Notes under the pieces: generated by a model
Seen by the model: only the letters and a program-made list of their open reading frames with translations
What the model was told of the DNA's origin: nothing
The model's database searches: none
NCBI GenBank assembly: GCA_943736015.1
Contig: OX031073.1
Coordinates: 25,137,210 to 25,201,209, forward strand
Source: Tridacna crocea
Lineage: Eukaryota > Mollusca > Bivalvia > Cardiida > Cardiidae
Direction: 5' to 3'
DNA: 64,000 nt
Program-made: the position numbers and the translations under genes
Shown: positions 24,501 through 54,596 of the stretch, in pieces
How the letters are laid out: every line of letters begins with the position of its first letter
How positions within the stretch are numbered: position 1 is the stretch's first letter

Positions 24501-27500
24501 AAACTGTTGATAGCATTACCACTGAGAATCCCATGCAGTCAGAATGTTCTGACTCAGTGCAACGGGAGGATATCCCATCCACATCCGGAATCTCTTCATC
24601 TGACTGCATGGCTGTTATCGACAGACGAATATCTTCAAAAGGCTATTCTGATTCGACTAGAGAACTCATGTCAAAATCTTGGAGACGTGGCACCCAGAGA
24701 GATTACAAAGCTAAATTCAGAATTTCCCATAGCTGGTGTGCTGAAAGGGAAATTGATCCCTATCTTGCCTCTTTGAAAGATTGTGCAGATTTTCTGACAT
24801 GTATGTTTCATAAGGGCCTGAAGTACAGGACTCTAAACGGGTACAGGTCAATGCTATCTTCAGTTTTGGCACCAGTGGATAATTGTGCTGTGGGGCAACA
24901 TCCTTTGATTATACGTTTATTGAAGGCAGTTTTCAATGAACGTCCACCAGTTAAGAAACTTGTTCCTGAATGGAATCTCCTTCTTATTTTAGAATGTCTC
25001 AAAGAAGATCCATTTGAACCGTTGCAGAGGGCATCTTTGAAATATTTAACTTGAAAGACTTGTTTCCTGATAGCCATCACCACTTTCAGAAGATGCAGTG
25101 ATTTACAGTCTTTACACCTAAGTGAAGGTTTTGTTAATGTCCAGAAAAAGGGTGTTACTTTCATTAGTACCGGGTTATCTAAACAGGATAGACCAAATCA
25201 CGTGGACAAGAATATTTTCATACCAGCTTTATCAGGAAATAGACGGCTAGATCCAAAAAGGGCATTAACATATTATCTTAAAAAGACAGAACCTTTTAGA
25301 CACTCTAAAAATGGCCAGGATGTTTGCAATTTGTTTCTATCTTATCAAAAGCCAAATCATCCTGTTACTGCTCAGACTATCTCTAGATGGTTAGTTGAAA
25401 CAGTAAAATTTTGTTACAAGAAAAAGAACAAAAGTGCAGGTAAAGTGAAGGGACATTCTACACGCAGTATTGGTCCTTCTTGGGCTTCAAAGGTGCGTCT
25501 TTGCAACAGATCATGGAATCCGCAGACTGGTCTAGGGAGACCACATTCACAAAACACTACCTTAAACCCATCAATGTGGATTTCATGAAGGTGTAGGAAA
25601 CACCAGTGTACAGTGGGTTACTCTATTCTTGCGGATTTTTTAGAGAGGAAACTGTTTTTTGATAGAAATAGGAAATTCCAGATGATTCATGTTTTATATT
25701 TGTATACAATAATACATGTGCATGTATAGGGACATGAATCACTTTTTCCCAATAGATAATTGGGGTTTTGTACAGACTATGTTTTATTCTGTATATAAAA
25801 TGATTGGGGTAGTCACTGAGGACAGAACTGGGATGAAAAACACCCACCTCCTCAAGTACTGCTGTGGAATCTACAATAATCCTCATTGTCATACCAGGTA
25901 AGTTTATTTATGAAATAAAATTGGAAAATTTGTATTTCAAATTAGAGTTTTATGAATAAATAATACTTACCTGGTATGACGGCTACCCTCCCTCCTGCCC
26001 CTCTTGTCATTCATACAGTTATTTATGGCGAAATTACTTTCGCCAGAAAAGAAACTGAGGGGTAACACGAGGTACATACGGAAGTAAACTAAACGGTGCA
26101 AGGGTAAAAAAGTTCACTTCCGGTTGGGTACGGTCTAAAGCGGATTAAGAAAAGAGAATCCTCATTGTCATACCAGGTAAGTATTATTTATTCATAAATC
26201 TCTAATTTGAAATACAAATTTTCCAATTTGAACGTAACACAACTTGTCATTGGCTAAACCGAATGGTTTTGTTACTTACCAGTGTTACCTGTCTTTTATT
26301 TACCACATTAACCTAACTCTTTACCAAACGACAAAATTTAGACTGGTCCAAATTGAAAGCACTTGCAGACGACAAAATAAACGAAACTCAAAAACTCACT
26401 TTGTTTCCAGCAGGGTAGAAAACCTGGTTACCAGCATTTCCTCCTTTTCCCACAATGTCTTCAAAAGGCTTATTTCAAGGTCGTAAAAACCAGGGATTGT
26501 TTGTTAAAGGGTTAAGTCATAAAGGTCCGTTTTAGATTTCGAGGCGACACCACCCGAGTTTGTATGGATTGACGGCGGCCCAGTGGACAACGACGGAATT
26601 ATTATTGAGAGCCAGTGTTATGCACTTAAACGAATCATCATTGATCAAGAGTTTAACATACCTGGAAGTGCCGAATGTGAAAAACCATTTCCGTTTGTAT
26701 GCGTGAAACCGACAGAAATTCAAGGTAAGTAACAGCAAAGCACTTCGGCGGATTATCATCAGAGGGGGTAAGTTGTCCAGTAAATTTGTAAAAATAGGGA
26801 GCACTTTATCCCTTTCCCAAACGACAAATTTTGGACTCTTCCAAACCAAAAGAGTTTGTTTGCAGACGACAATTTTAGATTTGGAGAAAATGGCAGAAAG
26901 TTCTCAAAAAGGGTGGAAAACACTGTGGGAAAAGGTGAAATTGCTCGTTTTCCCACAGTGTTTTCAAAAGACTTTTACTGCAGACACGTAAAAACCATGG
27001 CTTGTTTGGGAAAGGATTAAAGATAATTGAGGCAAATGCACGTAACCATTTACCACACAACAATATTGTAAACTGGTCCAAGTTAAAAACGTCTGCAGGG
27101 CCAAAATTTAAATATGGTTAAGATGATAGGGTTTATTCTTTAAAGGGCAGAAAACACTGTTGGAAAAGGAGAAAATGCTGATTCAGCAGGGATTGTTCGG
27201 TGAAGGGTAAATAGAATTTCTCTTTCAAACGGTATAAACATTCTGGAAAACGAAGAAAGTGCTAATAGCTTCTTTTCCCACTTTGCATTTAAGACTTCAA
27301 CCTCAGCGTCTTTAACACATTGGAGGAACAGATAAAGAGTAATATCATTAGTCTATTTTTCCTTGTAGAAGAAATCCAGATCGAAGTTAAAAGTCCATAT
27401 TTTGATCAGAATGAGCTACAGTCCCTAGACCCTTTCACGATGTTGTCGATGACGGCCATGTTTAACAGGGAACCTAGCGAAAACGAGGTTATATTCATAC

Positions 27501-42500: not shown

Positions 42501-43899
42501 CAAGTGCGCGGGACCAACTGTTTTCACCTTCAATATTGAATAGTTAGAATATAAAAACGGTATTTTCACTGGTCGCAAGCATGAAATATCGAAAAATACT
42601 TCACTGATAGTTCAGGATAACCAGCTGGAAAGCACGAAATAGATAGTTTATGTGGCTAGGCGCTAAACTTAAATTTCCGTCAGACAGTCTGTCAATATGT
42701 ATCTATTCTGCCAGCTTCTCAATCTGGGTGACATTTCTAATGCCCTGGTAAATCGGCTGGCAGGGCAAGTGATACTGGTGGAGTGAAATCGAATCTAGCC
42801 ATTCTCTGAAAGGCTATACCACTTATTTCATTCTCGAGTCGCATTTGTCCAACCAATGTAGATTGCATTTTATTTAGACAGTATCACAATATCTTATTCA
42901 CTTAAAAAATCTGATTGGCAAAACCATTTGGTTAAGCCAATAAGAAATATGTTATTTTGAAATTTAGAAATCTCTTGAGTATAAGAATAAGAATTGTATA
43001 AAGAATTGTTGGTGAATACAGTATACGAGACACCAAGAAGGTAGTTGATACGATATTACAATTGAACTATAGTTTTTTAAAAAGGGTAATACACGAAACA
43101 ATCCAAGAGTTTATCAATCATTCGTGTTTCTAACTGTGGCTAGGACGACGGCAGGATAGTTTGTGCATTCTGGGACTACCGGGCCGATGAAGGGGCCGGT
43201 GGCTGGAGAACCGATGGCTGTAACAAATCTGTTATGGTGGACGGACGTATTAATTGCGAATGTGACCATCTCACCAACTTTGCCGTTCTTATTGTAAGTA
43301 TTTGCACCATTTTGACATGATTTATTTTTGTGTGTCTGTGTCAAACTCTTGGGCCACCACTCACTGATCACAGAAACGAAATCGTGACAATGTCAAAGTT
43401 ATCTTTACGACAAAATTGTCATAACAACTCATCATGTTTTAAATATAAGTTCTCTTGTTTTTAATGTAAGACAGCCATTATTAAATTTCTTATCTTACAC
43501 AAGAGTTAAAAAAAAGGAAAGAAAACGGTAGCAAAATTGGTCAACGAGCTGTAATTGTGCGCTTTATTTCAAAAACAATGTTGATGGAGATTCCAGTGTG
43601 AAATTGACTGTCAAAACTGATGGTCGTGACACAGCTGCAAATTTTAGTACCTTTAGATGTAAAACAAAACCAATTTCTTTGGATTTTTTTTTGTCTGTGA
43701 TATACAAACCTGTCAAAGAAACAAATACTTTTTATGTAAATCTTAATGAATATGTAATGTGGGGCTATGAGTTAGCACTTTTATGAACTAAGACAGTTGT
43801 GTGTTTAAAATAATCTAACGTTCGTATTGTCTTTTGAGGTAAAATCTTATTAAATTCGTCCACAAAAGAGTGTTATTAAGCTCATCAAAGGCTCGCGTA

Positions 43900-43932
<33 letters not shown>

Positions 43933-46900
43933 GTAAACTGGTTCAGTAGAACTGGACGATTAATAGTTAATAAATATTTGAATGATAACCAACATTATGA
44001 GCAACACTTTCAGTATTTTGTCTTTTTGCCAGGACTTAGAAGCCTACACCATATCAGACACCAACAAATTGATTTTGGAAATCGTCACCAAAGTTGGATT
44101 AATTATTTCTATCATTGGACTTGGTCTGACGATTTTGACCTTTATCTTATTCAAGTAAGTCCAAGATAATTTGCCTTAACGATATTATGCTAGATTTATA
44201 TATTTTGTCTATTGAAATAACTCAGTGGTTATTTACATTATTTTAACTAAATATGGCGGACAAAAGCTATGGGTACAGCTTGACTCATAACTATACTATA
44301 AGTAGAAACTATATGTTTTTACTACCACAGGGAAATTCTCACCTAACAACTAGTCTTCCCTTTCGCCACCATGTACCGGAGTTCTCTGTAAGAGGTTATG
44401 GTTTGCTTTAACAAAAGCATTTTTCAGCTTATCAATGTGATCCCTCATTATGTCATTTTTTTTTTTCAGCCATACCGCTCCGGATGCTGTTTGTTTGGTT
44501 GACGTTTCTATTTACGAGCTTTCTTATAATACTTTCAAAGATTTGGGGGCGTAGGAAACACTTCAAATACAATATATAATGCATGATGTAAAATAAGCAT
44601 CCAATGGCCCCTTCCACTGAACCTTGAAACGAAAGACAAAACTTGTAAATTTTGAGAAGATATTTATGCAGAGGACAAATCAAATGAGAGGTGTATTTGA
44701 ATGAGTATAAGACATCTTTGAAAAGGAGAAAATACTTGTAACCAGAACTTTCTTTTTTTCGACATATCATGACATATCCAGCATTTTCTCCTTTCCTAAC
44801 ATTTTTTACATTTTTCTCAGGGAGTTAAACTGGGAACTGTTTGATTTAGTATGTCACAGAAATATTTTTTTCTTGTTGCTAGGCACTTGAGAAGTGGCCG
44901 AGGACAGCAAGTGCTGATCAACTTGGCTGTAGCAATGATTTGTTCTGCAATAATTTTCCTTGTTTGTATGGACCGAACGGAGGATAAAGTGGGCTGCAAG
45001 ATAGTGGCGGCACTTCTGCACTATTTCATACTTGTCTCCTTCATGTGGATGTTGGTGGAGGGAATCTTACAATATTTGAGATTTGTCAAAGTTTTGGGGA
45101 CCTATATACCGAAGTTTATGCTAAAGTCCATGATTCCTGCTTGGGGTAAGTCTTCTCTACAACGCTGTATTTCGTTTCACTTTAACCCATTACCACACAA
45201 TCCCTACTTTTGACGACCCTGAGAAAGAAGCCTTTAAAAAACACTGTGGGAAAAGGAGAAAATGCTGGTAACCAGCATTTTCTCCTTTTCTCACAATGTT
45301 TTCTACCCTTCACAAAACAAATTTCAAATTTTCAGTCACTTTTATTTTGTCGTCTGCAAATGCTTTTGATTTGGCCAAGCCTAAAATATTTTCGTTTGGT
45401 AATGAGTTAAATACTACCTATCAGACTTTGTACAAATAACGAGATTTATTTCCACTTATAATGATGTTTTGATACAACGGCTTATTTCGTTCACACCTAG
45501 TGTCACATACAGCTGAATTAATTACTCCTGCTTATAACAATGTTTTGATTTAACGATGTTTTGTTTGCCCGTATCCAACAGAACCCGTTATTTGATACGG
45601 CGTAATTCACCTTTTGAGATCCTGGTGATAGCAATGTTTGGATTTTGCGCTGTTCTTTTTTTTTTGGTTTTCTGAATTATTGATAAAAGCAGAATTAATC
45701 ATGATTGATTTACATGTAGATTTGCATGTTACATTATACAGAGTTTATTTCATCAGGTTGTGGTTAATATGGAGAAATTTTTGCCGAAAAAGGGAATGGT
45801 ATGCGAAAATAACGAATGTCGTAACTGCCGAACATATCGGTTAATTGACTTCAGATCACTGATGGAGTGAGGTCGAATCTAGCCATTCTCTAAAAGTGAC
45901 ATTTTTTGACAAAATAATCAGAGGAAATATAATATATAATAAAATAATCAGTTGAAATATATAATTTATTTCATCAGTTTGTAGTTAATATAGGGAAATA
46001 TTTGCCGACAAAGGGAAAGGTCCGCCAAAATAATGAGTGCGTACGGCACTCGTTATTTTCGCGGACTTTTTCCTTCTTCGGCAAATATTTTCCCATATTA
46101 ACCACAAGCTCAAGCTAATGAAGTAAGCAATCTTTATTTTCGCGGACCTTTGCCTTTTTCGGCAAATATTTCCCCATATTAACCACAAGCTAATGAAATA
46201 AACTCTGTATAACAACATTGTGTTGTTGTTCTGAACATCGCCGAATGGAAAACTTAACTACACATATTGAAACAGCTGTCTGCTTGAATAACAGAGTTTT
46301 TTTCTTTTGTTCCAGGAATACCTATAATCCCAGTCGTGATTGTGGCAGCGATTGATCACGAATTATATTTCGGAGGAAATGGATAGTAAGTGAGATGACA
46401 CCAGTAACCTTAACTCTTATCCTGGCGTTTGCGACCATAGGTGAATTATGTGGAGAGTGTAAATAAAGATCAGACTAAACGGTCGCTCAGTCTTATCTTG
46501 CTTAACAATCTCTGCAATACAATTCACGGTGTCGGTCGTCCAAACCACATTCAGTGCGAATGGTCTTAAAAAAAGATGTTCGTAGTGTCCGTGGTTGTGG
46601 GGTAGAGCGTCGGCCTCGTAACAATAAGTTTCTGAGTTCGATACCCGGAAGAGGGTGTCAACTTTGGGATTTTTCATAAGCCCAAACATTCGGTGCGAGT
46701 ACTAGTGTAGTTCCCAGGAAGCAATATCGAGAGAGATAAGTATAAGTTATAAGAGCTTGTTTCTCAATTGATGTAAAATAAATATGTTTAAACTAAAAGA
46801 TATTGTTCTAGTTGTCTTGATGAGGGCTAATATGTGTTCCCCATGTGGTCATGGTAAGTCAAGAACAGACTAAACAGAGAGTCTGACTCTTGATCTGAAC

Positions 46901-49900
46901 TATCCGGTATTGTTTAAATTGGTAAAATAGTCAAAATAGCCTTAAAATGAGTTTCGTCTTTTCATCTGATCAACTTTTACCATACCACTTCTTCAAGACA
47001 GGTAGCAGTTTGAAGAACTTGCTATTAATATTATGGATTATTTTTTCTTATTTTACCACACATTTTTCAAACGCCTTTTTTTCTGTCGTTTGTTATCATT
47101 TATCCATGTGCGACCCATATAGTCGAACTTAAGCTGTATAAAATTCGAGTTCATAACTGATAATTTAATGTCAAATAAAATGGCTCTAATTCTACTATGC
47201 GAGTACAGAATATCTTAATCGATATTGGACGCTGTATTATTATGGATTTTTTTCAGAACAAGGCCAAATTCCTTTATGGATTTTTCAAACGAAGCTAAAG
47301 TTCCAAATATAGGTATTCAACCGAAAGTTCAGTCTACTGAAGTCCATTGTCAAAAAAGCAATCAAAACGCCCTTTTGATATGTTTTGTTTTTTATTATTG
47401 TTACTTGAATTGAAATGGCGCTATAATAGTAATTAACTTTAAAGTCAATAGAAAGATGTGAAATAAATGCTAACATACTAAGGTACAATACTGAATTCAG
47501 TTGGATTCATACACTGCAGAACCAGTAGATAATTTTCAGTCGGCTGTCGCCTCGTTCATTACATAGACTGGTTCTGCTGTGTACTCGTCCAATGGAATTC
47601 AGTATTGTATCCATGCATATTAGATAACCTCATAGTACTAAACAAATACCAAACCGTTGTGAAACATGATTCTTACTAAATAAACCTGAGTCATGCTTTT
47701 TGAAAAGGGAGCTAAATATATCTGCCAAAAGTATCGATCCACGCCCTCCTGCTGAGTCGTTTCATAGGTCGATTTTTTTTACTTTTTGTAAAATTTCTGT
47801 TTGTCAACAGTTCCAGTCAATTGAATCCATAGATATGTGAGGAACTGTTGGCTTACCCGTTAAGGAAATGCATTAAATTCTCTGTTGCATGAATGTGGAT
47901 TAAAAGTTTTCTTGCTTTTTTTCAGTTGCTGGTTGGACCGTGATGCCATGATGTACGCCTTCATTATCCCAGTAGCAGTCATTCTTTTCGCAAATATCGT
48001 AGTCTTCTTTTTGGTACTCTGTAACCTTTTCCGGCGGAAGTCACGTGGTATGAAATCCAACCAATCAGAGAGGAAGATGGCGTTCCTCCATTTTCAAGCA
48101 GCTGTTTCAATATTTGTTGTTTTAGGTAAGAAATTTTTGTAGATATTGTCGTAAATTTCTGTCATTTTTTCGCAGTTTGAGTAAGAATTAAAACTTGTTG
48201 GTTGTGCTGCTCGTGATGATGGTGGTTGGTTGGTTTCTTATCTTTTCACATTATCTTTTCACAGAGTCCTGTGCCTATTTACCCATATCATTACGGAAAT
48301 AAGCTTCAAGGAGCTTAACTTTAACTAAACACCTAAGTTATAGATAGTATTGAAACATGTCAAATATTTTATCTCATATTGGAATATATGACTTCTCTTT
48401 GATATAACTGAATTGTTATAAAACATCACTCGTGCTAGTGAAAAGTATTCCTCTTTCAGGTTTGACATGGGTTTTCGGGTTTCTTGCCATCGATGGGGCA
48501 AGAGTTATCTTCCATTATGTGTTTGCAATACTCAACGCCTTCCAGGGTTTCTTTATCTTCCTTTTGTTCACTGCCAGAGAAAAACAGGTAAGTCTTGGAC
48601 ACTTAACAGGTTAGATATGTTAGTTTGAAGGCTGTGCATTTGGGTTGGCTACATGTAACAGACATTTACGCTTTACCTCTTTACCTCACAATCCTAAGTT
48701 TAAACGACCATAGGGGGTCCTTTGTGGCTCACTGGATCCACTATTCAACAATTAACGATCCTAAGAAAAAAAAGGCGTTTGAAAGCATGGAGGGAAAAGG
48801 AGAAAATGCTAGTAACCAGCATTTTCTACTTTTCCCACCATGTTTTTTACCTTATAATGGACAAAAACCTCTACTTCGGAAAAGTTTGAATTGTCGTCTA
48901 CAATTGCTATAAGTTTGGCAAAGTCTAATGTTTTTTTGTTTTTTTTTCGTCTGGTAAACAGTTATCTGCAGATTTAAATCTGAACCTGAAAGTTACCTAT
49001 TCTTACAACCCTAGGAAAGAAGCTTTATAAAAACATTTTGAGAAAAGGATAGTTTGCTCATAAGCAGCAACTTCACATCGCTGACAATGTTTTCTGTCAT
49101 TTCATAGACATATATGTTGGCCACCTATCCCGCTAAACAATATCATCTTCTGAAAATTCTACCGCCTTCTTCTTCTTCTACATAAAAAAGGGTTAAATAT
49201 CTTTACTTTAGCTGCAGGGAGTAATGTTGTAAAGTAGTCTGTAACATAACTTAGGTTGCTTGCATACTTCTTCGTAGTCACACTGTCAAACGTCTAACCT
49301 AGAAAGGCGCATTATTGACGTTACTACGTTAGTCACACTAGTCCGTTATAAGTCGCATCACCCTTTTAGTCGGACAATCACCTTTTCAGTCTAACAGTTA
49401 GGCGCATCATCGCTTTAGCTTTACCATCATGTAAATCATACCTCCGAGTAAGAGAAACTGCCTTGCCTTGTTAGGTGATTACAAAGTCAGTCTCACAACA
49501 GTACACTTAGACGCATAATCACGATAGTCTCGCGACCACAATTACCCACATCTTCCAGTTAGTCTTACAACCATACGCTTAGAGGCAATATTACGATAGT
49601 GTCACGACCACATTACCAACATCGTCCCGCCTGTCTCACAATCAAACGCTTAGAGGCAATATCACGATAATCTCACGACCACATTACCAAAATCTTCCCG
49701 TTAGTCTCACAACAATACACTTAGACGTACTATCACGATAGTCTCACGACCACACCACAATATCCCGTTAGTCTCGCAACCATTCACTTAAACACACTAT
49801 CACGATAGTCTCACGACCACATTACCCACATCGTCCCGTTAGTCTCACAACCATACACTTAGACGCATAAATACGATAGTCTCACGACCAAATTACCCAC

Positions 49901-52900
49901 AATATCTCGTTAGTCTCACAACCATACACTTAGACGCACTATCACGATGGTCTCACGACCACATTACACACATCTTCCCTTTGTTCACACAACCATACAC
50001 TTAGACGCACTGTCACGATAGTCTCGCGACCAAATTACCCACATCTTCCCGTTACTCTCACAAACATACACTTGGACGCACTGTCACGATAGTCTCACGA
50101 CCATATTAACCACATCTTCCCGTTACTCTCACAAACATACACTTAGACGCACTATCACGATTCTCTCACGACCACATTACCCACATCTTCCCGCCAGTCT
50201 CACAAACATACACTTAGACGCACTATCACGATAGTCTCACGACCACATTACCCACATCTTCCCGCCAGTCTCACAAACATACACTTAGACGCACTATCAC
50301 GATAGTCTCACGACCACATTCCCCACATCATCCTATCAGCCACACGGTCATTTACTTAAGCGCACCACCCCGTCATTTATGCAACCATTTACTTAGGCGC
50401 ACGATCACGGTAGTCTTACCAAAACATTACCCATATCTTTCCTTAGTCATACAACCGTACACTAAATGTGCACTATCACTATAGTATCACCACCACATTG
50501 GCCACACCATTTCGAAAGTCAAATAGTCATACTTTTAGGCGCACTGTCTGATAGTCTAACCACAACATTACCCACAACACCCTGTCAGTCACAGAATCAT
50601 TTACATAGGAATAAAATCCCGTAAGTTACGCAACCATAGGCGCACGATCACGATAGTCTCACCAACACATTACCAGCATCATTACGTTAGTTACACTCTC
50701 TCGTTATAGACGCATACAGATACACTATTTCGACAGTAGTGCACCATACTGTTAGACCCACAATCCCGCTAGGCATTCGTCCCTATGGCCGGCGTCACAT
50801 ATGGCCGGCGTCACAATGTGACGCCGGACTTAGGGACAGGTGCTTAGCGGGATTGTAGGTATGAAGAAGTTTTTACTAGTCTCGTATTTTTTCATCTGTC
50901 ACATTTTAAGGTAGGACATGCTTGTTAGAAAACCTTTTTTTATTATTTTGAAATTTTGGAATTGGATGTTATCAAAATTTGAGACAGCAACTTTTCCTTA
51001 TTTTTTATTTTTTTTTTTAACCGGTTGAAAAGAAGCAAATTTATTTTTGCACCAATTACACTTTTCTTTTCAATCAAATTCGACATTTTTCGAAACTGTC
51101 CTAGAAAAGTTAATCATGTTCTACCTTAACCTGCTCTGATGGTCATCAAGTTCTGCTGCAACATGAACAGTGTAGTGCTGTTAGAGATCTCTTGTATTTC
51201 AGGTTAGCCTATCTCTATCCAAGCACGTATCCTTCTGTACATAATCGCAATATACTCTTGTAACCATTTCTGTCTGTCTTTCTGTGGTGCTCTTTATTTC
51301 CGCACGTTTGCTTACAGATTCGGAAAGCATGGAGGAAAATGTGTTGTAAATCAAAAAGCAAAACATTTACCACCGGAAGTACTCCTGATAGTGTTCCTTT
51401 AAAAGCTCATTCTGATTCTACTGAAACTGGTTACAAAACATCGTCTACCGGAACTGAAGTTAAACGATCCAATGTGTATAAAACAGGTGATGAGCAAATT
51501 ATCGTATGAAAAGTTCAAACACACGTGGGATGCAACACTAAAATTTAGGGTACTTTGATAATATCATGTGGAATGAAAGTAGCTTTCTGCAGGATTGGAA
51601 CTTTGCTTTTGTAATTCTGTTGCGTGAATGTGGTAAAAACGAGTAAAATCGCAAATTGAAACCGACTGATGTGGCTTACAATTCAATCCATAGATTAACG
51701 GGCGCTGTTTATTTTGCATGCCTAACAGACGTTGTCTGCGCATGTCATATTCTTCGAAGATTCGACTGTCTTATATGATGCATCACTTCTAGCCCCGAAA
51801 GCGGGCTGACTGTACGCTCTATAAAGTAGCAATGTTGAAAATAGCTTTTACGTATCAATACGTTTGAGGAGAAATGAGACCTGCTTAAAAAGCAACAGAT
51901 TTCTCTAAACTGGTGATCATAGTTGAGTGAATTGCACGAGGTAGCGTTTTATTGGGTAAACCTTTTTTTTTGTTTTATATTCAAAGTAACGGTTGTCGCG
52001 TAGGAAAGTGGTTCGGTTCTGTACCCAGGATGCCCATATCAGATAGATGAGTATTTATAGAATGCCATCTAGCGGGAGATAATGGCCTAACAGAAGGTTG
52101 TCCCCAATGCTTGAACAGCTCACGAAACGTTCCGTATCCTCGTAGGAGCCGAATCATAGCGTTTTTTTCCTCCTTTTTAAAGATCTCCCTTAAACAACAC
52201 GAATAGCGGTTTATCAGCTTCTCGATATATCCGGCGACTTTCTAAGCACACTTGATAGTCAAGCTTTGTAATTAACCCATTTCCACACAATCCCTACTTT
52301 TGACGCCCCTGAGAAAGAAGCCTTTAGAAAACATTGTGGGAAAAGGAGAAAATGCTGGTAACCAGCATTTTCTCCTTTTCCCACAGTGTTTTCTACCCTT
52401 CCCAGAACAAACTTCAATTTTTCAGTCACCTTTATTTTGTCGTCTGCAAATGCTTTCAATTTGAACCAGTCTAAAATTTTGTCGTGTGGTAAAGAGTTTA
52501 AGGGATTTTCACCCCAGGGTGTTTGCCAATTAGCAATTAGTTCACTATTTAGAATTTAGATTGAGACTGGAACTGAGAATGGTTGATGAATTCGAAACTA
52601 GAACTACAGTCCACTAAAAAATATTTTTTTTTAAAAAAAATTCTGTTTTAAAATTCCGAGAACGAAATCATTACTTGGACGTATATTTTTACAGGTAGAA
52701 TCATCTTTTAAATAGAAAATAGTAATTTATTAGTTATTGAAGATCACAAATTAACTACGTGTGTGTAGGGGGCTGTTACCTGGGTGACAGTAGTCTAGGA
52801 CATGATTTTGACATTTTTGTGTCTGGTGAATTAGCACCCGAAGGTTAGAAAAAGCGTATCTCTAAGTTTTTAATCCACGTACATTTAGAATAATATTGAT

Positions 52901-53230
52901 AAGAATATGGACAACATTGTTACATTTCAACAGTTAGTGAAACAACATATCAACAGAAATTTACCCGAAAATCTTGCCTTGTATATGACTTTAATCTCTT
53001 ATGAACATCTCTTCGCTTTCCAGATTCGTAATGCCTGGAAAAAGATGTGCTGTAAACGATCCGCCGGAAAGGCGACGTCATCCAGTACCGGAACTGATGT
53101 ACCGAGACGGAAGACGTCACTTGATACAAATTCTACAGGGGTTAAAAGTTCCAGTGGTAAAAGTGATAACAGTTATAATGGAAACGGTCGGAACATCTCC
53201 GAATTTCATAATGTTGGTTACGATCCGTAG
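9437..53230 (+). CDS. Adhesion GPCR with two C-type-lectin-like domains (whole spliced gene)
   Basis: A receptor of 1,496 or 1,501 residues assembled from exons at 9437-9500, 11420-11653, 14283-14379, 17328-17632, 19116-19316, 26536-26724, 27369-28169, 28800-28961, 30002-30227, 34146-34306, 36015-36116, 37038-37183, 37942-38088, 39137-39231, 40173-40432, 41630-41805, 43144-43293, 44033-44154, 44883-45145, 46316-46385, 47926-48125, 48460-48587, then 51318-51509 or 53024-53230. Domain order: signal peptide (1-20), CTLD1 (about 30-230), CTLD2 (235-360), unrecognised region (364-813), HRM (814-880), GAIN with GPS (about 897-1172), class B2 seven-helix domain (1190-1420), cytoplasmic tail. Family knowledge: adhesion GPCRs self-cleave at the GPS, and the new N-terminus acts as a tethered agonist. 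The exons agree in phase from end to end, so the model is well supported, but it was built by eye without transcripts. Ligand and G protein are unknown. Confidence 0.92.
9578..9802. mobile_element. piggyBac-type MITE copy in receptor intron 1
   Basis: Begins 77 bases after the exon 1 donor; hairpin GAAAATGCTGGTAACCAGC present. A degraded copy follows at about 9860-10030. Confidence 0.75.
10336..10685. repeat. Imperfect long hairpin in receptor intron 1
   Basis: GGACTGATCTTCAAAAGTGC near 10337 pairs with the complement near 10665, and TTCTTTGAAACATCATAAAA-type arms meet near 10515. Arms of about 150 bp with mismatches. Likely a foldback MITE; no second copy seen in the window. Confidence 0.65.
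10670..11330 (+). repeat. Tandem SINE-like units in receptor intron 1
   Basis: Three units carrying ATCTCTTTGGCTCAGTGGTT, with a tRNA A-box look, each preceded by CCCGTATAAAATCAATACCT; two also carry ATTGGCCATTGAGCTATTAA. The last unit keeps a B-box-like TTTGAATCCCG. It ends about 90 bases before exon 2. Confidence 0.6.
11420..11653 (+). CDS. Receptor exon 2: N-terminal part of C-type-lectin-like domain 1
   Basis: Residues 22-99. The long-form CTLD start is visible: C31, then EEGW, then C47 followed by F, and WQRAQEYC with W57 and C64. This is the usual helix 1 pattern (W..A...C). Acceptor TTCAG and donor GTAAAT keep phase 1 on both sides, typical of shuffled extracellular modules. The upstream intron carries a tandem of SINE-like units. 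Confidence 0.93.
11815..12510. repeat. Three copies of a palindromic TTCAATAAACCAC repeat in receptor intron 2
   Basis: Copies at about 11815-11945, 11946-12110 and 12346-12510. Each has CAATAAACCACAGTTGTGAG on one arm and CTCATAACTCAC...GTGGTTTATTG on the other, with AGAAAGAAGATTATTTCGAT at the edge. A TGACGTCA-rich segment near 12220-12660 separates or follows them. Related copies at 61130-61200 and 61443-61600. Confidence 0.8.
13328..14038. repeat. Possible element with 14-bp inverted ends in receptor intron 2
   Basis: GTGGTATTTGTCGA at 13328 and its exact complement ending at 14038 bracket 710 bases with no coding frame. Single copy in the window, so the call is tentative. Confidence 0.4.
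14283..14379 (+). CDS. Receptor exon 3: middle of CTLD1
   Basis: Residues 100-131, including GQFWSGMN, the conserved FW.G core of the lectin fold, and LMWDSYG in the position of the loop that normally reads W.W.DG. The acceptor is GTTTCAG. The donor GTAAGT gives phase 2, which matches the next exon. Confidence 0.9.
14624..14844. mobile_element. piggyBac-type MITE copy in receptor intron 3
   Basis: Flanked by TTAA on both sides (14620-14623 and 14845-14848), ends CCCTTTCCCAAAC / GTTTGGGAAAGGG. Confidence 0.88.
15050..17185 (+). repeat. Tandem array, about 163-bp unit, in receptor intron 3
   Basis: Starts AGCTCACCTTAGCACAAAGT, then about ten units marked by GAGCTTTGATATTTGGTATG, GGACCTCTACCAAG and GGTCAAAACTGGCCCC. 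It ends with a second, head-like segment near 17010-17160 (AACTTGGCAGGGATGTTCCT). It occupies most of the intron between exons 3 and 4. Confidence 0.88.
17328..17632 (+). CDS. Receptor exon 4: C-terminal part of CTLD1 with Thr-rich insertion
   Basis: Residues 132-233. SWTWAQGQP with C149 is followed by a Gly/Ser/Thr-rich insertion (about residues 170-195, including TTTTAPPSTT, a likely O-glycosylated segment), then the closing CDTELPFVCQK of the lectin fold. The calcium-site signatures EPN/QPD and WND are not visible, so canonical sugar binding is doubtful. A piggyBac-type MITE begins 14 bases after the GTAAGT donor. Confidence 0.9.
17646..17866. mobile_element. piggyBac-type MITE copy next to the exon 4 donor
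   Basis: Starts 14 bases after the end of exon 4, flanked by TTAA. Hairpin nearly perfect. A degraded second copy lies at about 17970-18165. Confidence 0.88.
18170..19110 (+). other. Part of receptor intron 4 with little content
   Basis: AT-rich sequence with short open frames that carry no recognised motif. No second copy of any segment seen in the window. Confidence 0.55.
19116..19316 (+). CDS. Receptor exon 5: N-terminal part of CTLD2
   Basis: Residues 234-300. FCPDGW, PYCF (C250) and VTDARRVC (C267) match the start of a second C-type-lectin-like domain. Both splice sites are phase 1 (acceptor CACAG, donor GTAAGT). A repeat with short inverted ends begins about 10 bases after the donor. 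The 7.2-kb intron that follows contains the DIRS retrotransposon. Confidence 0.92.
19326..19688. repeat. Repeat with inverted ends GGCCCGTCGGAAG / CTTCCGACGGCC
   Basis: Begins about 10 bases after the exon 5 donor. The interior holds two copies of a unit with AAAATAAGACGCTCTCTGGT and TGGTCCGGCC-type ends. No coding content despite short open frames. Confidence 0.7.
20384..20764. repeat. MITE with TTTCGATCTTTCAC / TATTTCATGC ends
   Basis: About 380 bp. Family also at 42160-42640, 53740-54152 and 58044-58432, sharing CTTTCTGGGAGGAGCTTTA, TATTCCCCGTGGCGTACC, AAGCGCGAGAAATGTAAGGT and TCGATATCCTACCGGAA. Confidence 0.8.
20949..21009 (+). repeat. Left half of a MITE split by the DIRS insertion
   Basis: Matches the start of the family with ends GGGCCCGTATTCACC (compare 39627-39828 and 55042-55236) up to TTTTCTAAA. 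The rest of the copy resumes at 26225 after the DIRS element. Confidence 0.75.
21010..21174 (+). repeat. Left inverted terminal repeat of the DIRS element
   Basis: Nearly identical, in reverse complement, to 26046-26226, including the stretch CGGATTAAGAAAAGAGAATC seen at the right end. The left copy has a small insertion near TTACCTGGTA. The outermost boundary is fixed only to within the shared AATT. Confidence 0.85.
21290..22717 (+). CDS. DIRS gag-like ORF1
   Basis: A 475-residue open frame starting at an ATG just inside the left terminal repeat. The N-terminal third is Ser/Arg-rich (PVSKRKKKSRRSRYNEL) with an acidic middle; a helical part (GQKAARLGLIIQMYIQQSL) and a basic C-terminus (SYRKPASTTSGRGRL) follow. 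No zinc knuckle is seen. Its place before RT and overlap with it (22599-22717) fit ORF1 of DIRS elements. It is the only intact frame of the element. Confidence 0.7.
   Translation: MASNKLTEVTRLSDSDDMINVSPPRLSSKTRGDISSLSDSTVHSPVSKRKKKSRRSRYNELAKRFSALENMFKDFMEKNSRSGQTCYDDRVGQTHSTETQVTRNRFPKGGNFESDSDSEANDNVSLFACGQISPEEGECQEPLDSNNNLTVSEDKLTKEQKNDLFDMFGDDAIVKKDKKIGGIVLDKSQIEVISSSYRCKEPNFLTAFSEETFDAFPLDSTFEETLQVPSLDPIIEGCLTKRYGNKAAFTKSKSKSLFSQPGKMVEKINYKGQKAARLGLIIQMYIQQSLGNLMQSMQSDTFQKEKSIQQVKDIFAMSTKCLDQIGRSGAFHHISRRAVAMTDTALYEQHDSLEFSNLPLTGEGVFGTELETLLKSRKEKMKHVEELLPDLKKGQKRKSSGYQFDNKRPALEFSSEKPASNNWNNFRIPKLPKDNRNESRQNSYNSKYRRGYSNSYRKPASTTSGRGRLAKSDEK
22599..24776 (+). pseudogene. DIRS reverse transcriptase / RNase H, interrupted
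   Basis: RT part (22599-23603): GDLRPVINLKPLN, the DLKDAYFHI motif, and the catalytic YLDD at 23346-23357. An in-frame TAA at 23601-23603 breaks the frame. The same frame continues from 23607 with the thumb and an RNase H domain, whose acidic residues are TDASG (D80), LEMMAV (E113) and RSDN (D138), numbered from 23607. The PRVL.HF and LIAPMWPRQ segments after it are typical of DIRS/Ngaro polyproteins. The YR frame overlaps its 3' end from about 24608. Confidence 0.82.
24608..25596 (+). pseudogene. DIRS tyrosine recombinase, broken
   Basis: Begins near MAVIDRR. The helical core-binding part includes GTQRDYKAKF and YRSMLSSVLAPVD. An in-frame TGA at 25052-25054 interrupts it. After that, in the same frame, come the first catalytic Arg (RRCSDLQSL, 25088-25093) and the H..R box (GHSTRSIG, His at 25454 and Arg at 25463). 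The expected catalytic Tyr (codon 25558-25560, HYLKP context) lies in another frame, so a frameshift falls near 25490-25500. The protein cannot be made whole from this copy. Confidence 0.8.
25880..25985. repeat. Internal complementary region of the DIRS element
   Basis: The first half is complementary to the outer end of the left terminal repeat and the second half to the outer end of the right one, the two being joined head to tail. In known DIRS elements this region templates completion of the circular replication intermediate. Confidence 0.8.
26046..26226 (-). repeat. Right inverted terminal repeat of the DIRS element
   Basis: Reverse complement of the left terminal repeat, with extra outer sequence (AAATACAAATTTTCC) that is also present in the internal complementary region. 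This places the right end near 26226. Confidence 0.85.
26225..26285 (+). repeat. Right half of the MITE split by the DIRS insertion
   Basis: Continues with AATTTGAACGTAACACAAC and CATTGGCTAAACCGAATGG, the middle of the same MITE family. Together with 20949-21009 it brackets the insertion exactly. The far end of the MITE is missing or degraded. Confidence 0.7.
26317..26511. mobile_element. piggyBac-type MITE copy next to the exon 6 acceptor
   Basis: Ends 24 bases before exon 6. Left target site CTAA, right TTAA. Part of the central hairpin is lost. Confidence 0.8.
26536..26724 (+). CDS. Receptor exon 6: C-terminal part of CTLD2
   Basis: Residues 301-363. FVWIDGGPVDNDG is the WIDG strand of the lectin fold, SQCYAL supplies a cysteine, and CEKPFPFVCVKP is the closing pair. 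No WND calcium motif is visible. The acceptor TTTTAG lies only about 24 bases after the end of a piggyBac-type MITE (26317-26511). Donor GTAAGT, phase 1. Confidence 0.92.
26810..27016. mobile_element. piggyBac-type MITE copies in receptor intron 6
   Basis: Ends CCCTTTCCCAAACGAC / GTTTGGGAAAGGA. A second, more degraded copy follows at 27046-27207, so this 645-base intron is mostly MITE. Confidence 0.8.
27369..28169 (+). CDS. Receptor exon 7: long unrecognised segment with three RKKR sites
   Basis: Residues 364-630, by far the longest exon (801 nt). I do not recognise a domain. The first 99 residues look like a folded beta-rich unit. RKKR at 463-466 is followed by a Lys/His-rich stretch (467-508), a second RKKR at 509-512, about 113 mostly polar residues and a third RKKR at 626-629. 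Each fits the furin consensus R-X-K/R-R, so the ectodomain may be processed at up to three points. Phase 1 on both sides. Confidence 0.88.
28800..28961 (+). CDS. Receptor exon 8: unrecognised ectodomain segment
   Basis: Residues 631-684, starting SVPLPDFPNENQDGF. No family is recognised. It begins directly after the third RKKR site, so it would be the new N-terminus if cleavage occurs. Acceptor TTTTTTTAG, donor GTGAGG, symmetric phase 1-1. Confidence 0.85.
29150..29418 (+). mobile_element. tRNA-derived SINE in receptor intron 8
   Basis: The head GGTGGCTCAGTGGTGAGCGT is tRNA-like. The 3' part CGCCATGATATGACCTTAGC with GGCGTTACACCAC matches the core of the SINE at 1605-1828. About 265 bp, same strand as the gene. 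Confidence 0.65.
29735..29960. mobile_element. Degraded piggyBac-type MITE in receptor intron 8
   Basis: Two partial hairpin arms in series (about 29740-29780 and 29790-29850) with GAAAATGCTGGTAACCAGC. Ends at about 29960, close to exon 9. Confidence 0.65.
30002..30227 (+). CDS. Receptor exon 9: unrecognised ectodomain segment
   Basis: Residues 685-759, ERDWHIYVLTVDMQS onward. It is rich in alternating hydrophobic residues, as in a beta domain, but no family is recognised. Acceptor TTTCAG; donor GTAAGT in phase 2. About 60 bases downstream the intron has a short array of the AGCTCAAC-type satellite seen at 5385-6985. Confidence 0.87.
30295..30545 (-). repeat. Short array of the AGCTCAAC satellite in receptor intron 9
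   Basis: About three units related to 5385-6985, starting about 60 bases after exon 9. Confidence 0.8.
30780..32760 (+). repeat. Tandem satellite, about 87-93-bp unit, receptor intron 9
   Basis: About twenty units marked by CCCAATATTCCTGACAGGTA, GCTTAAGCCTGTATGTTGC and TTTTTTCTTGAAACCACGTT. Interrupted by the piggyBac-type MITE at 31174-31395. Short open frames on both strands come from the repeat. Confidence 0.9.
31174..31395. mobile_element. piggyBac-type MITE inserted in the intron 9 satellite
   Basis: TTAA at 31170-31173; GATAAAGGG right end followed by TAAA. The satellite unit is interrupted at this point and resumes afterwards. Confidence 0.85.
33400..34145 (+). repeat. Degenerate tandem array of splice-acceptor-like units before exon 10
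   Basis: Roughly 15-18 units of about 36-56 bases: a T-rich run, then TTTATTCATAG or a variant, then TGGAAATACAATGAAATTC. The last unit is the acceptor and first codons of exon 10 (TTTATTTACAG, then TGGCAGTACAATAAAATTCC). Confidence 0.75.
34146..34306 (+). CDS. Receptor exon 10: unrecognised, helix-rich segment
   Basis: Residues 760-813. After a short beta-like start (STIKFRLFMNMY), the segment ELEQELIPVLDAHWRNNLAK looks helical; a SEA-like alpha/beta fold is possible but not demonstrated. The acceptor TTTATTTACAG and the first 30 coding bases are themselves a unit of the degenerate tandem array that precedes them (about 33400-34145). Donor GTACAC, phase 1. Confidence 0.85.
34525..34724. repeat. 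MITE with perfect central palindrome, receptor intron 10
   Basis: Palindrome around CGTCTCGATGAGACG with arms GTACTCATTAGAATC; outer ends AGAGCTCTAGATAAG / CTATCTGGAGCGCT. Second copy at 41406-41600. Confidence 0.85.
34815..35005 (+). repeat. Three tandem copies of a 60-bp unit in receptor intron 10
   Basis: Units begin GCGTATAAAAGTAATCTCTG and differ by very few bases. Sixty is divisible by three, so a frame stays open (AYKSNLCRDRHRMMIDTKTT repeated), but no splice sites or homology support coding. Confidence 0.9.
35026..35246. mobile_element. piggyBac-type MITE copy in receptor intron 10
   Basis: Flanked by TTAA (35022-35025, 35247-35250). The central hairpin has variant loop sequence GAAATTGCTCGTTACGAAC. 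Confidence 0.87.
35505..35680 (+). mobile_element. SINE-like fragment in receptor intron 10
   Basis: Shares GGGACTTTTTATTGGC, CGGCACGAGTACTGGTGTAG and the TTGTTTCTCAAT tail with the element at 46588-46795. The 5' head is missing. Confidence 0.5.
36015..36116 (+). CDS. Receptor exon 11: first half of the HRM domain
   Basis: Residues 814-847. C816, FPSTPAGETA and C845 match the start of the hormone-receptor motif of class B GPCRs (C....W/F P.T.aG......C). Acceptor CTATAG. The donor GTTATA is weak, but the phase-1 junction to exon 12 reproduces the family spacing between Cys 2 and Cys 3. Confidence 0.83.
36117..37037 (+). other. Receptor intron 11, no recognised content
   Basis: AT-rich sequence between the two HRM exons. 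No repeat of the families above and no further exon was seen. The frame of exon 12 stays open back to an AG at 36948-36949. Confidence 0.6.
37038..37183 (+). CDS. Receptor exon 12: second half of the HRM domain
   Basis: Residues 848-896. GTGAFASRRC (C857), GVTWGN (W867) and C876 complete the HRM pattern C..G..G.A.R.C....W....C. The acceptor at 37036-37037 (TTTTGAAG) has a poor pyrimidine tract; it was chosen because it is the only nearby AG that keeps phase 1 and gives the family spacing. An AG at 36948-36949 also opens this frame but needs phase 0. Donor GTGAGA, phase 0. Confidence 0.8.
37942..38088 (+). CDS. Receptor exon 13: start of the GAIN domain
   Basis: Residues 897-945. The helical segment LTEADIIYTAEILYNYWQ resembles the first helices of GAIN subdomain A, which normally follows HRM in adhesion GPCRs. 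NTT, NDT and similar sequons give candidate N-glycosylation sites. Phase 0 on both sides; acceptor CTGTAG, donor GTAAGT. Confidence 0.9.
38247..38418. repeat. Palindromic MITE in receptor intron 13
   Basis: Same family as 5202-5361; nearly complete inverted arms around GTGCCGTAAGGCAC. Confidence 0.85.
39137..39231 (+). CDS. Receptor exon 14: GAIN subdomain A helix
   Basis: Residues 946-976: GLDSVYDVANNVLERFPNII and a following amphipathic helix rich in Ala and Asn, as in GAIN subdomain A. Acceptor TTTTTCAG, donor GTATAT, phase 2. Confidence 0.88.
39627..39828. repeat. MITE with GTATTCACCAACC ends, receptor intron 14
   Basis: About 200-bp palindrome centred on GGCTAAACGGAATGGTTTAG. Ends CTGTATTCACCAACC / GGTTGGTGAATAC. 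This is the family that the DIRS element split at 21010/26226. Degraded copies at 28550-28750, 32809-32945 and 42862-43022. Confidence 0.85.
39849..40172 (+). other. Part of receptor intron 14 with nothing seen
   Basis: AT-rich sequence between a MITE and exon 15; no exon, repeat unit or hairpin recognised. Confidence 0.6.
40173..40432 (+). CDS. Receptor exon 15: GAIN domain, subdomain A to B
   Basis: Residues 977-1063. A helix with NNAELFGNTTLRV is followed by an acidic linker (TDADVNLTDTAIFLDEDLL), consistent with the passage from the helical to the beta-sandwich part of GAIN. Acceptor CATTCTAG. The donor GTATTT is weak; the frame runs open a little further into a hydrophobic segment that I treat as intron, because the splice to exon 16 is in phase. 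Confidence 0.86.
40505..40724. mobile_element. piggyBac-type MITE copy in receptor intron 15
   Basis: Flanked by TTAA on both sides, begins 73 bases after exon 15, ends CCCTTTACCAGAC / GTGTGGTAAAGGG. Confidence 0.88.
41406..41600. repeat. MITE with perfect central palindrome, receptor intron 15
   Basis: Same family as 34525-34724 (centre CGTCTCAATGAGACG). Ends about 30 bases before exon 16. Confidence 0.85.
41630..41805 (+). CDS. Receptor exon 16: GAIN subdomain B
   Basis: Residues 1064-1122. RTVFQIYSKTTLFT, then VSKVAAARLEINGVQITEL and VTAVFKPTK, the strand pattern that precedes the GPS in adhesion GPCRs. Acceptor TTTTTTCCAG; donor GTAAGA, phase 0. Confidence 0.92.
42160..42640. repeat. 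MITE, TTTCGATCTTTCAC family, receptor intron 16
   Basis: Diverged copy of the element at 20384-20764; it keeps the inner inverted segment around TCGGTAATATT and the GGAGGAGC-like middle. Confidence 0.7.
43144..43293 (+). CDS. Receptor exon 17: GPS autoproteolysis motif and tethered agonist
   Basis: Residues 1123-1172. The four GPS cysteines (1129, 1148, 1160, 1162) and both tryptophans (1132, 1143) are present. CECDHLTNFAVLI contains the catalytic H1164-L1165/T1166 site, so self-cleavage between L1165 and T1166 is expected. The strand TNFAVLI would be the tethered (Stachel) agonist. Phase 0 on both sides. Confidence 0.96.
44033..44154 (+). CDS. Receptor exon 18: transmembrane helix 1
   Basis: Residues 1173-1212. 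The agonist linker leads into VGLIISIIGLGLTILTFILF, helix 1 of the class B2 bundle. Acceptor TTTTTGCCAG, donor GTAAGT, phase 2. Confidence 0.94.
44883..45145 (+). CDS. Receptor exon 19: helices 2, 3 and start of 4
   Basis: Residues 1213-1300. Helix 2 is VLINLAVAMICSAIIFLVCM. C1251 (VGC) at the top of helix 3 is the conserved partner of the second extracellular loop cysteine. HYFILVSFMWMLVEG is the class B2 helix 3 signature. Helix 4 begins at SMIPAW and runs into exon 20. Acceptor TTGCTAG, donor GTAAGT, phase 1. Confidence 0.96.
45186..45406. mobile_element. piggyBac-type MITE copy in receptor intron 19
   Basis: Flanked by TTAA, starts 41 bases after exon 19. A degraded relative lies at about 44695-44830, just before exon 19, so the exon is bracketed by two copies. 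Confidence 0.87.
45737..46213. repeat. Palindromic MITE interrupted by a relative, receptor intron 19
   Basis: The outer ends ACAGAGTTTATTTCATCA and TGAAATAAACTCTGT belong to one copy; a second copy (about 45957-46130) is nested inside. Some unique sequence near 45840-45950 separates them. Confidence 0.65.
46316..46385 (+). CDS. Receptor exon 20: helix 4 and second extracellular loop
   Basis: Residues 1301-1323: GIPIIPVVIVAAIDHELYFG, the end of helix 4 and the loop leading to C1325 in the next exon. A 70-nt exon with acceptor GTTCCAG and donor GTAAGT, phases 1 and 2. Confidence 0.93.
46588..46795 (+). mobile_element. SINE-like repeat in receptor intron 20
   Basis: TTGTGGGGTAGAGCGTCGGC and GAGTTCGATACCCGG look like the A and B boxes. 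Related, shorter copies occur at about 13099-13170 (head only) and 35505-35680 (body and tail). Confidence 0.55.
47484..47610. repeat. Short foldback element in receptor intron 20
   Basis: Arms GTACAATACTGAATTCAG and CTGAATTCCATTGG-type complement, with inner arms GCAGAACCAGT / ACTGGTTCTGC. About 125 bp, single copy. Confidence 0.7.
47926..48125 (+). CDS. Receptor exon 21: loop 2, helix 5 and start of 6
   Basis: Residues 1324-1390. YCWLD carries the loop cysteine C1325 that pairs with C1251. MMYAFIIPVAVILFANIVVF is helix 5. The basic third intracellular loop (FRRKSRGMKSNQSERK) is followed by helix 6 from FLHFQAAVSIFVVL. Phase 2 to 1. Confidence 0.96.
48460..48587 (+). CDS. Receptor exon 22: helices 6 and 7
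   Basis: Residues 1391-1433. GLTWVFGFLAIDG (helix 6) and VFAILNAFQGFFIFLLF (helix 7) are hallmark class B2 sequences. It ends TAREKQ at a phase-0 donor GTAAGT, from which either of two tail exons can be joined. Confidence 0.97.
48676..48962. mobile_element. piggyBac-type MITE copy in receptor intron 22
   Basis: Hairpin GAAAATGCTAGTAACCAGC. Contains an extra insertion of about 60 bases near its left end. A very degraded copy follows at about 49000-49190. Confidence 0.7.
49255..50760 (+). repeat. Tandem satellite, 71-bp unit, in receptor intron 22
   Basis: About 20 units such as CACTTAGACGCACTATCACG followed by ATAGTCTCACGACCACATTA and CCCACATCTTCCCG. The cleanest adjacent units are exactly 71 bases apart (50210, 50281). 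Units degrade at both edges. The array lies between exon 22 and both alternative tail exons. Confidence 0.92.
50762..50866. repeat. Inverted repeat closing the 71-bp satellite
   Basis: CACAATCCCGCTAGGCA and GTCCCTATGGCCGGCGTCAC on one arm pair with GTGACGCCGGACTTAGGGAC and TAGCGGGATTGT on the other. About 45-bp arms. Confidence 0.85.
51318..51509 (+). CDS. Receptor exon 23a: alternative C-terminal tail A
   Basis: Residues 1434-1496 plus stop TGA. It starts IRKAWRKMCCK, is Ser/Thr/Lys-rich, and ends DEQIIV, which fits a class II PDZ-binding C-terminus. Acceptor GCTTACAG, phase 0. A possible internal donor (GTGATG at 51487) joined to exon 23b would stop two codons later. I find no AATAAA or ATTAAA between its stop and exon 23b, so its 3' end is unclear. 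Confidence 0.88.
   Translation: MRKAWRKMCCKSKSKTFTTGSTPDSVPLKAHSDSTETGYKTSSTGTEVKRSNVYKTGDEQIIV
51700..52085 (-). repeat. Inverted copy of the CCCGCTAGATGG repeat between tail exons
   Basis: Reverse orientation relative to the two copies near the window start; lies in the interval between receptor exons 23a and 23b. Confidence 0.75.
52276..52496. mobile_element. piggyBac-type MITE between the two tail exons
   Basis: TTAA at 52272-52275 and TTTA on the right; hairpin perfect. Lies between exon 23a and exon 23b. Confidence 0.87.
53024..53230 (+). CDS. Receptor exon 23b: alternative C-terminal tail B
   Basis: Residues 1434-1501 plus stop TAG. It starts IRNAWKKMCCK, nearly identical to tail A over its first 11 residues, then diverges into a Ser/Asn/Gly-rich tail ending NVGYDP without a PDZ-type end. 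Acceptor CTTTCCAG in phase 0, so it can replace exon 23a exactly. The two exons look like a tandem duplication used as mutually exclusive last exons. Confidence 0.87.
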   Translation: MRNAWKKMCCKRSAGKATSSSTGTDVPRRKTSLDTNSTGVKSSSGKSDNSYNGNGRNISEFHNVGYDP

Positions 53231-53311
53231 TGGTTTTCTAGTGCATATCAAATTGTTTGTCACCTGTCAGAATTTAGTCGAGCTGGTCTTTTGACTGAGC
53301 ACGAAAAGCTA

Positions 53312-53535
53312 TGCTTAACTTCTAACCAAACAACAAAGTTTTTGAATTGGCAAAATTGAAAGAATTTGTAGACGACAAATTGATTGTACCTCAACAGATG
53401 ATTTTTTTAACATGATAGAGAATAGTGTGTTAAAAAGAAAAAAATGCTGGTTATCAGCATGGTCTCCTTTTCCTACAATGTTTTCAAAAGTTTTCTTCTT
53501 CAGGTTCGTTGAAACTTGGGATTGTTTGTCAAAGG
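53312..53535. mobile_element. Degraded piggyBac-type MITE after the receptor stop codon
   Basis: Left TTCTAACCAAACAAC, partial hairpin AAAATGCTGGTTATCAGCAT, right TTGTTTGTCAAAGG. Probably in the 3' UTR of tail B transcripts. Confidence 0.7.
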
Positions 53536-53538
53536 TCG

Positions 53539-53544
53539 AATAAA
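53539..53544 (+). promoter_or_regulatory. Candidate poly(A) signal of the receptor gene
   Basis: First AATAAA on the plus strand after the tail B stop codon, about 310 bases downstream, at the edge of a degraded piggyBac-type MITE. Position only; use is not shown. Confidence 0.3.
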
Positions 53545-53739
53545 ACATATACAACTTAAACATGCCAAAATATTTCATGTCTAGATATTGCTTATGTTAC
53601 AATACAATTTCTTTGTTTTCATGTAGGAACATTGTGTGACGCAGTACCACCAGTTTAGTATGTCGTAATCTAAATTGCACCCAGTTGTAAGCTTATAATA
53701 TGGCTTAATTTTTCAGCGCCAAAGATATAGAGGATATTT

Positions 53740-54152
53740 GTTTTTTTTTCGGTGAAAGATCGAAATTTATTTCATAGAGTGGACACCATCGGTAATATTT
53801 TCACGATGGTGTTCACGAGAAGAAATAAATTTCGATCTTTCACCGAAAAAAACAAATATTCTATTTATTTCATGCTTTTTACCCTTTCTGGGAGGAGCTT
53901 TATCAAAATTTAGTACAGTTCTTTTCCCTTATTCCCCGTGGCGTACCCCCCCCCCCGCATAGCAACGTTACATCAAGCGCGAGAAATGTAAAGTATATGA
54001 CGTCATATTTCCCATCTGGTTGTTAGGCACGCGCAATTTACCTAGGCAACAAGAACGTGAAAATCGGTATTTTCACTGGTGGTACCAGTAGAAGATCGAA
54101 AAATATTTTCACTGCTATTTCTCGATATCCTACCGGAAGGCATGAAATAAAT
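53740..54152. repeat. MITE, TTTCGATCTTTCAC family, intergenic
   Basis: Well preserved copy; GGACACCATCGGTAATATTT and an inverted partner lie near the left end. Confidence 0.8.
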
Positions 54153-54377
54153 GGACCATTCTCTAACGAGAGGGGTTATAATGCATCTCCGTGATCCATG
54201 TTACTAAGAAAGAAATAATGTTATTATGAATCAATAGAATGTATACTACTCAAAATTTGCTAGGGATCACTCAAAAAGATTCACTCTAAATATATATGCG
54301 GCATGTATTATGTATGATTTTACAATAAGTTACATTTCCACACTGAGCAATAAAATGACCAGTGGAAATGGATCTTT

Positions 54378-54596
54378 AAGCCTTATCTCACAATGCCGAC
54401 TGTTAAAGACACTGAGAAAAAGCCTTTGGAAAACGTTGTTGGAAAAGGAGAAAATGCTGGATACCAGCATTTTCTCCTTTTTCAACAATGTTTTCTATCC
54501 TATTACAGACAGCATAGTGCCCGTTGCATTTAGTTTTTGGTCAGCAAATGCTTTCAGCTTGGACAAATCTAGAGTTTTACAGTATGATAAAGAGTT
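54378..54596. mobile_element. Degraded piggyBac-type MITE, intergenic
   Basis: Hairpin GAAAATGCTGGATACCAGC retained; both ends diverged. Confidence 0.65.

Follow-up and report, generated by a model that had tools for sequence, protein, structure and literature searches.

The window, by which we mean the whole stretch of 64,000 nucleotides analysed here (C18:25137210-25201209 in the 1.05 Gb genome of the bivalve Tridacna crocea), holds an adhesion GPCR gene (class B2) on its forward strand. Six exons between 43144 and 48587 could be joined at GT-AG sites into a single reading frame (Table 1). The rebuilding covered these six exons from the GPS to TM7, and the number "22" of the last one follows the exon count of an earlier note on this DNA. 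The GPS motif, which reads CDHLTNFAVLI, is placed directly before TM1 and a secretin-like 7TM domain follows. With the six core exons plus tail A as query, Pfam returned GPS at 8.4e-15 and 7tm_2 at 5.7e-47, and the best relatives with a solved structure were ADGRG2, ADGRG6 and ADGRL3. Single-exon pieces of the ectodomain gave no match to GAIN in Pfam and only a sub-threshold match to Lectin_C (C-type lectin, 0.03-0.04). Upstream of the core exons, at 21275-25585 (+) and presumably within an intron of the receptor gene, lie the long open frames of a retroelement; the frame at 22524-23600 matches Pfam RVT_1 at 1e-17, and two other frames tested gave nothing at E<=0.01.

Exon 22 stops just behind TM7 at position 48587 in phase 0, and either of two downstream exons completes the frame. 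TTTGCTTACAG directly precedes the first base of exon A (51318), whose 63 residues read IRKAWRKMCCK...DEQIIV-stop; for exon B, the first base is at 53024, preceded by CGCTTTCCAG, and the 68 residues read IRNAWKKMCCK...NVGYDP-stop. Each of them has an acceptor, a double cysteine, a tail and a stop codon, and both are in the same phase. These splice sites, frames and stops, together with the starts and ends read from 51318-51509 and 53024-53230, agree with the earlier note, which had claimed that both exons accept phase 0 from exon 22. The shared start IRxAWxKMCCK aligns to VRKQWRRYLCC, which is found behind TM7 in ADGRG2 chains. Adhesion receptors of this sort have helix 8 at that place behind TM7. 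Hence, A and B each seem to carry helix 8, the double cysteine and the whole tail, and the same alignment would explain why this start is the best-kept part of the two exons. Two alternative last exons are the best reading of this arrangement as far as the DNA tells.

Three genes with both tails were found on C18, all in the same direction, at approximately 25.04 Mb (c1), 25.19 Mb (the gene of the window) and 25.29 Mb (c3). The DNA of tail A has three matches in the genome (100, 96 and 91%), and the DNA of tail B likewise has three over the whole query (100, 98 and 94%). The remaining 38 of the 41 rows obtained with tail B are confined to a repeat in the 3' flank of the exon (window 53303-53400). 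Exon 22 has 18 matches in the genome, of which four are on C18. The fourth C18 gene (gene 4) lies on the opposite strand at approximately 24.94 Mb and is a more distant paralogue with one tail; the six core exons are present in c1, c3 and gene 4 as well. At 49489-50333 of the window, in the intron that separates exon 22 from exon A, a 71-base unit is repeated in tandem (11.9 copies), and alignment gaps suggest that c3 has fewer of these units.

Table 1. Exons and candidate RNA-processing signals of the receptor gene in the window, with their basis or their occurrence in the other gene copies
Feature	Position in the window	Strand	Basis or occurrence
GPS exon (...CDHLTNFAVLI)	43144..43293	+	splice sites, frame; Pfam GPS 8.4e-15
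TM1 exon	44033..44154	+	splice sites, frame; 7tm_2
TM2-TM3 exon	44883..45145	+	splice sites, frame; Pfam
TM4-region exon	46316..46385	+	splice sites, frame; Pfam
TM5 and third inner loop exon	47926..48125	+	splice sites, frame; Pfam
Exon 22, TM6-TM7, phase 0, donor CAG/GTAAGT	48460..48587	+	also in c1, c3 and gene 4
Tail exon A (23a), helix-8 stretch and tail, ends DEQIIV, stop TGA	51318..51509	+	three genome copies
Donor-like CAG/GTGATG within A; joined to B gives D-S-stop	51484..51492	+	same in three copies; chance level
AGTAAA, possible weak poly(A) signal after A, +133	51642..51647	+	also in c3, absent from c1
ATTGAA (ATTAAA in c1 and c3)	51655..51660	+	three-copy comparison
Tail exon B (23b), helix-8 stretch and tail, ends NVGYDP, stop TAG	53024..53230	+	three genome copies
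AATAAA, likely poly(A) signal of B	53539..53544	+	+309/+309/+308 in window, c1 and c3

Besides the hexamers of Table 1, ATTAAA follows A at +135 in c1 and at +146 in c3, and AATGAA follows it at +52 to +63 in all three copies. Such hexamers are common in A+T-rich DNA and are hence weak evidence for 3' ends.

Origin of the two tail exons

From the comparison of their sequences, A and B are homologous duplicates. BLASTP aligns them with 48% identity over 44 residues, and their local score of 98 was reached by none of 2000 shuffles (mean 28, SD 5.4). When the first 11 residues were removed, the score was 44 compared to a shuffle mean of 29, and 25 of 2000 shuffles reached it. Moreover, A and B share an exact match of 12 nucleotides beyond the helix-8 part (at 51446 and 53086), as long as is reached in 4 of 2000 codon shuffles. 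It was therefore overstated that the two tails diverge completely after their almost identical starts. In six-frame searches of the own genome at E<=1, the six matches listed for B were the three B copies and the three A copies, and the same six were listed for A; the reciprocal matches between A and B had E values of 0.001-0.003. These genome-wide searches were not exhaustive: the tail of gene 4 was not listed, yet tblastn on its region alone found it at E 0.003-0.005. Taken together, the homology, the same phase, the complete open tails and the presence of both exons in all three copies give good support to the exon duplication and the two alternative last exons proposed in the earlier note.

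We also considered that the tails were acquired from another gene, as for KRAS4A, and rejected this candidate; no further match was listed at E<=1 in the searches that also missed the gene 4 tail. With no other source of the tails among the matches listed for the genome, a local duplication is the simpler assumption. A third tail exon was not found by a motif scan of the window, c1, c3, gene 4 (L044 only) and the nearest gene elsewhere, which is located on C7. The scan used [IVLM]-x(2,3)-W-x(2,4)-CC in three forward frames, with approximately 10 kb more downstream of each of c1 and c3. Apart from the known tails, its matches were at window positions 9757 and 31898 and at one place in c1, all of them with no preceding AG, and in the C7 gene, where the match is the gene's own tail, continuous from TM7.

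For the history of the exons, the comparison among the paralogues is informative. Exons A and B are both present, in the same order and without indels, in c1 and c3. The earlier note had pointed to the loss of one exon in close relatives as a possible objection; both exons are kept in these two copies, whereas the distant gene 4 shows a single tail. No second tail was detected in gene 4 at E<=0.01 in approximately 2.2 kb of its intron plus approximately 16 kb downstream. The tail of gene 4 is nearer to B, since only 3 of 2000 shuffles reached its score with B but 147 of 2000 that with A. Without the helix-8 part it fits neither of them (1397 and 1714 of 2000 shuffles reached the score for B and A, respectively). 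In the C7 gene, no intron separates TM7 from helix 8. An intron behind TM7 is nevertheless not peculiar to this gene family, because GTAA is found right at this site in 5 of the 18 exon-22 matches, i.e. in the four C18 genes and in L032 on C4. The simplest history suggested by these sequences would be that the exon was duplicated once gene 4 had split off but before the gene was tripled; alternatively, gene 4 may once have had tail A and lost it since.

The three copies also differ in their surroundings. c1 and the window are close to each other at 47461-48720 and 53221-53760; between these segments they are far apart, and the window is closer to c3. Such a mosaic suggests that the copies of the array have undergone gene conversion or unequal exchange. 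Between A and B, the window has two insertions that c1 and c3 lack, at approximately 51720-52085 and 52270-52500; a hairpin-like sequence (AAAATGCTGGTAACCAGCATTTT) is located in the second one, with similar sequences nearby, e.g. near 54450. In c3, the stop codon of tail B is replaced by GAG followed by TAG (L043 4906-4911), which changes the end of the tail to YDPE.

Conservation of the tails and alternative readings

In a three-way alignment of c1, window and c3, exons A and B are free of indels and differ by only 1-3% per pair. In contrast, c1 differs from the other two copies by 17-19% in the intron between exon 22 and A and by 15-16% in the intron between A and B, and the window and c3 differ by 5-7% in both introns. 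Downstream of B, the difference between c1 and the window is only 2-3% (7/299). We compared the divergence of each exon with that of its +/-300-bp flanks by Fisher tests. For A, 3/189 positions versus 64/494 in the flanks differ between c1 and c3 (4e-7) and 4/189 versus 64/497 between c1 and the window (3e-6), whereas the window and c3 (5/189 versus 19/507, p 0.33) cannot be distinguished from their flanks. For B, the counts are 5/204 versus 84/579 between c1 and c3 (2e-7), 2/204 versus 53/584 between the window and c3 (8e-6) and 5/204 versus 62/594 between c1 and the window (9e-5), the last contrast coming from the upstream flank alone. Hence, in five of the six pairwise comparisons the exon is far less diverged than its flanks, with p <1e-4.

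Among the three copies of B we counted four synonymous and two amino-acid changes (P 0.04); A has three of each, i.e. no significant deficit of amino-acid changes (P 0.18). The amino-acid share expected is approximately 0.75, and such counts are weak on their own. The tail A protein is identical between c1 and c3. Altogether, the alignments suggest that both exons have been kept by selection, which is doubtful for A of the window copy. Gene conversion may mimic such conservation, though hardly at the scale of an exon and in both exons.

With these data the possible readings can be weighed. We consider it very probable that this adhesion-GPCR gene has two alternative last exons, which go back to a tandem duplication of one exon that preceded the tripling of the gene. 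A resemblance of the exons by chance, or gene copies that are an assembly artefact (false duplication), is extremely improbable, even though copies in tandem on a single contig may represent haplotypes that were not collapsed, and the introns of the window and of c3 are only about 5-7% apart. A and B cannot be haplotypes of each other, as they differ at more than half of their residues, and both are present in each gene copy; c1 is 15-19% different in the two introns, with large indels. Chance is opposed by the reciprocal genome-wide matches and by the A-B score, which no shuffle reached. More weight can be given to the reading that the window gene uses B only and that A, formerly an alternative, is fading here and still used in c1 and c3, although we regard this as unlikely. 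In A, the three changes found in the window copy alone are all amino-acid changes (S17F, A22T, I63V), whereas each of the three that set c1 or c3 apart is synonymous. Moreover, the ATTAAA of c1 and c3 is ATTGAA in the window, the two insertions occur in this copy only, and the divergence of A between window and c3 resembles that of the flanks. The uneven split of changes, the missing ATTAAA and the insertions hint at a relaxed use of A in the window, where the exon may be under weaker constraint and perhaps decaying. On the other hand, its acceptor AG is intact, it holds neither stop nor frameshift, and I63V preserves the hydrophobic end. Furthermore, the numbers are tiny (3 versus 3), and the changes were assigned to the odd one out, without an outgroup.

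It is very unlikely that A serves as an internal exon, in which CAG/GTGATG joins B, giving a tail ...YKTDS without PDZ-type end and leaving most of B as 3' untranslated sequence. The arithmetic behind this third tail, which the earlier note had raised as a possibility, is right: A cut at 51486/51487 and joined to B at 53024 reads ...NVYKT-D-S-stop, two codons after the join. The donor is identical in the three copies. With a crude matrix based on human donor sites it scores 7.3, within the 7.0-12.8 obtained for the six rebuilt donors, and only 4 of 377 GT sites at 48001-54500 score as high. However, a site of at least this strength occurs in 1080 of 5000 codon-shuffled A exons, the +5 and +6 positions of the donor are poor, and the conserved hydrophobic C-terminus behind it would be unexplained if it were usually removed. 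The internal donor is hence at chance level and was rejected as evidence; beyond the arithmetic, nothing speaks for a third tail.

For the preferred reading of two alternative last exons, the exon-22 donor would be joined to A, with the mRNA ending after A or continuing with B untranslated, or it would be joined past A to B, whose acceptor is better by eye and which is followed by AATAAA 309 bases on. One ectodomain and 7TM core would be made with either inner tail. By analogy with the known systems compared below, a tail switch may be the likeliest purpose of such an arrangement. The end of A (IIV in the window, III in the two other copies) fits what we take to be the class II PDZ-type pattern and the end of B does not, as the earlier note had stated; the single last-residue change among the A copies (V/I) preserves this end. 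Nevertheless, 3.5% of shuffles of tail A also give such an end. B holds FHNVGY, which fits the PTB/kindlin-type F-x-N-x-x-Y pattern and is given by 3.9% of shuffles. Both motifs were set aside as weak evidence at these frequencies. That tail B is one residue longer in c3 argues against a free C-terminal signal in this tail. If the PDZ-type end of A is taken as real, the choice between A and B could alter scaffold binding, trafficking or G-protein coupling, as in latrophilin-3, which is a weaker conjecture than the joining to either A or B. A more elaborate version is very unlikely: the whole inner side would be swapped from the start of helix 8, A would lead to PDZ scaffolds and B to endocytic or integrin adaptors, a third PDZ-less A tail would exist, and the copies would be tuned separately, the window one towards B only.

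Comparison with known alternative tails

Among the matches listed in open-licence PMC full text, no paper on this receptor gene was found, but related arrangements have been described. According to the accessible excerpts of one article, each latrophilin-3 (ADGRL3) transcript includes one of the two exons E31 and E32, a PDZ-binding end is confined to the form with E31, and both G-protein coupling and the recruitment of scaffolds change with the exon that is chosen (PMC10830413). The likeness is an adhesion GPCR with alternative C-terminal exons, which are putative in the present gene. There are differences as well. The latrophilin-3 switch begins 81 residues after the last TM, whereas it would be placed directly behind TM7 in the present gene, so that the helix-8 stretch itself would be exchanged. 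Unlike A and B, the latrophilin-3 exons are nowhere called duplicates in those excerpts, and the latrophilin-3 end binds SHANK, whereas tail A shows a motif only (PMC10830413). PDZ ends are said, in the part available of another article, to occur in nearly half of the mammalian adhesion GPCRs (PMC13197933); compared to those, the putative end found here is of the class II type and in one of two exons.

The KRAS gene offers a second parallel. As given in the available text of a preprint, its homologous last exons 4A and 4B are used alternatively after a shared exon, and they resemble A and B in having similar starts and then divergent C-termini, those of KRAS with different membrane signals (PMC9882654). 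KRAS is not a receptor, its exon 4A is said to derive from an NRAS exon, and alternative use has been shown for it, whereas A and B are known from their DNA. Alternative homologous last exons are hence a known kind of arrangement, and the present locus would add another adhesion GPCR in which the choice of the tail is built from a duplicated exon and kept in a tandem gene family. If both exons are used, they would offer a clean natural test of the contributions that helix 8 and the tail make to such a receptor, because everything before them is identical.
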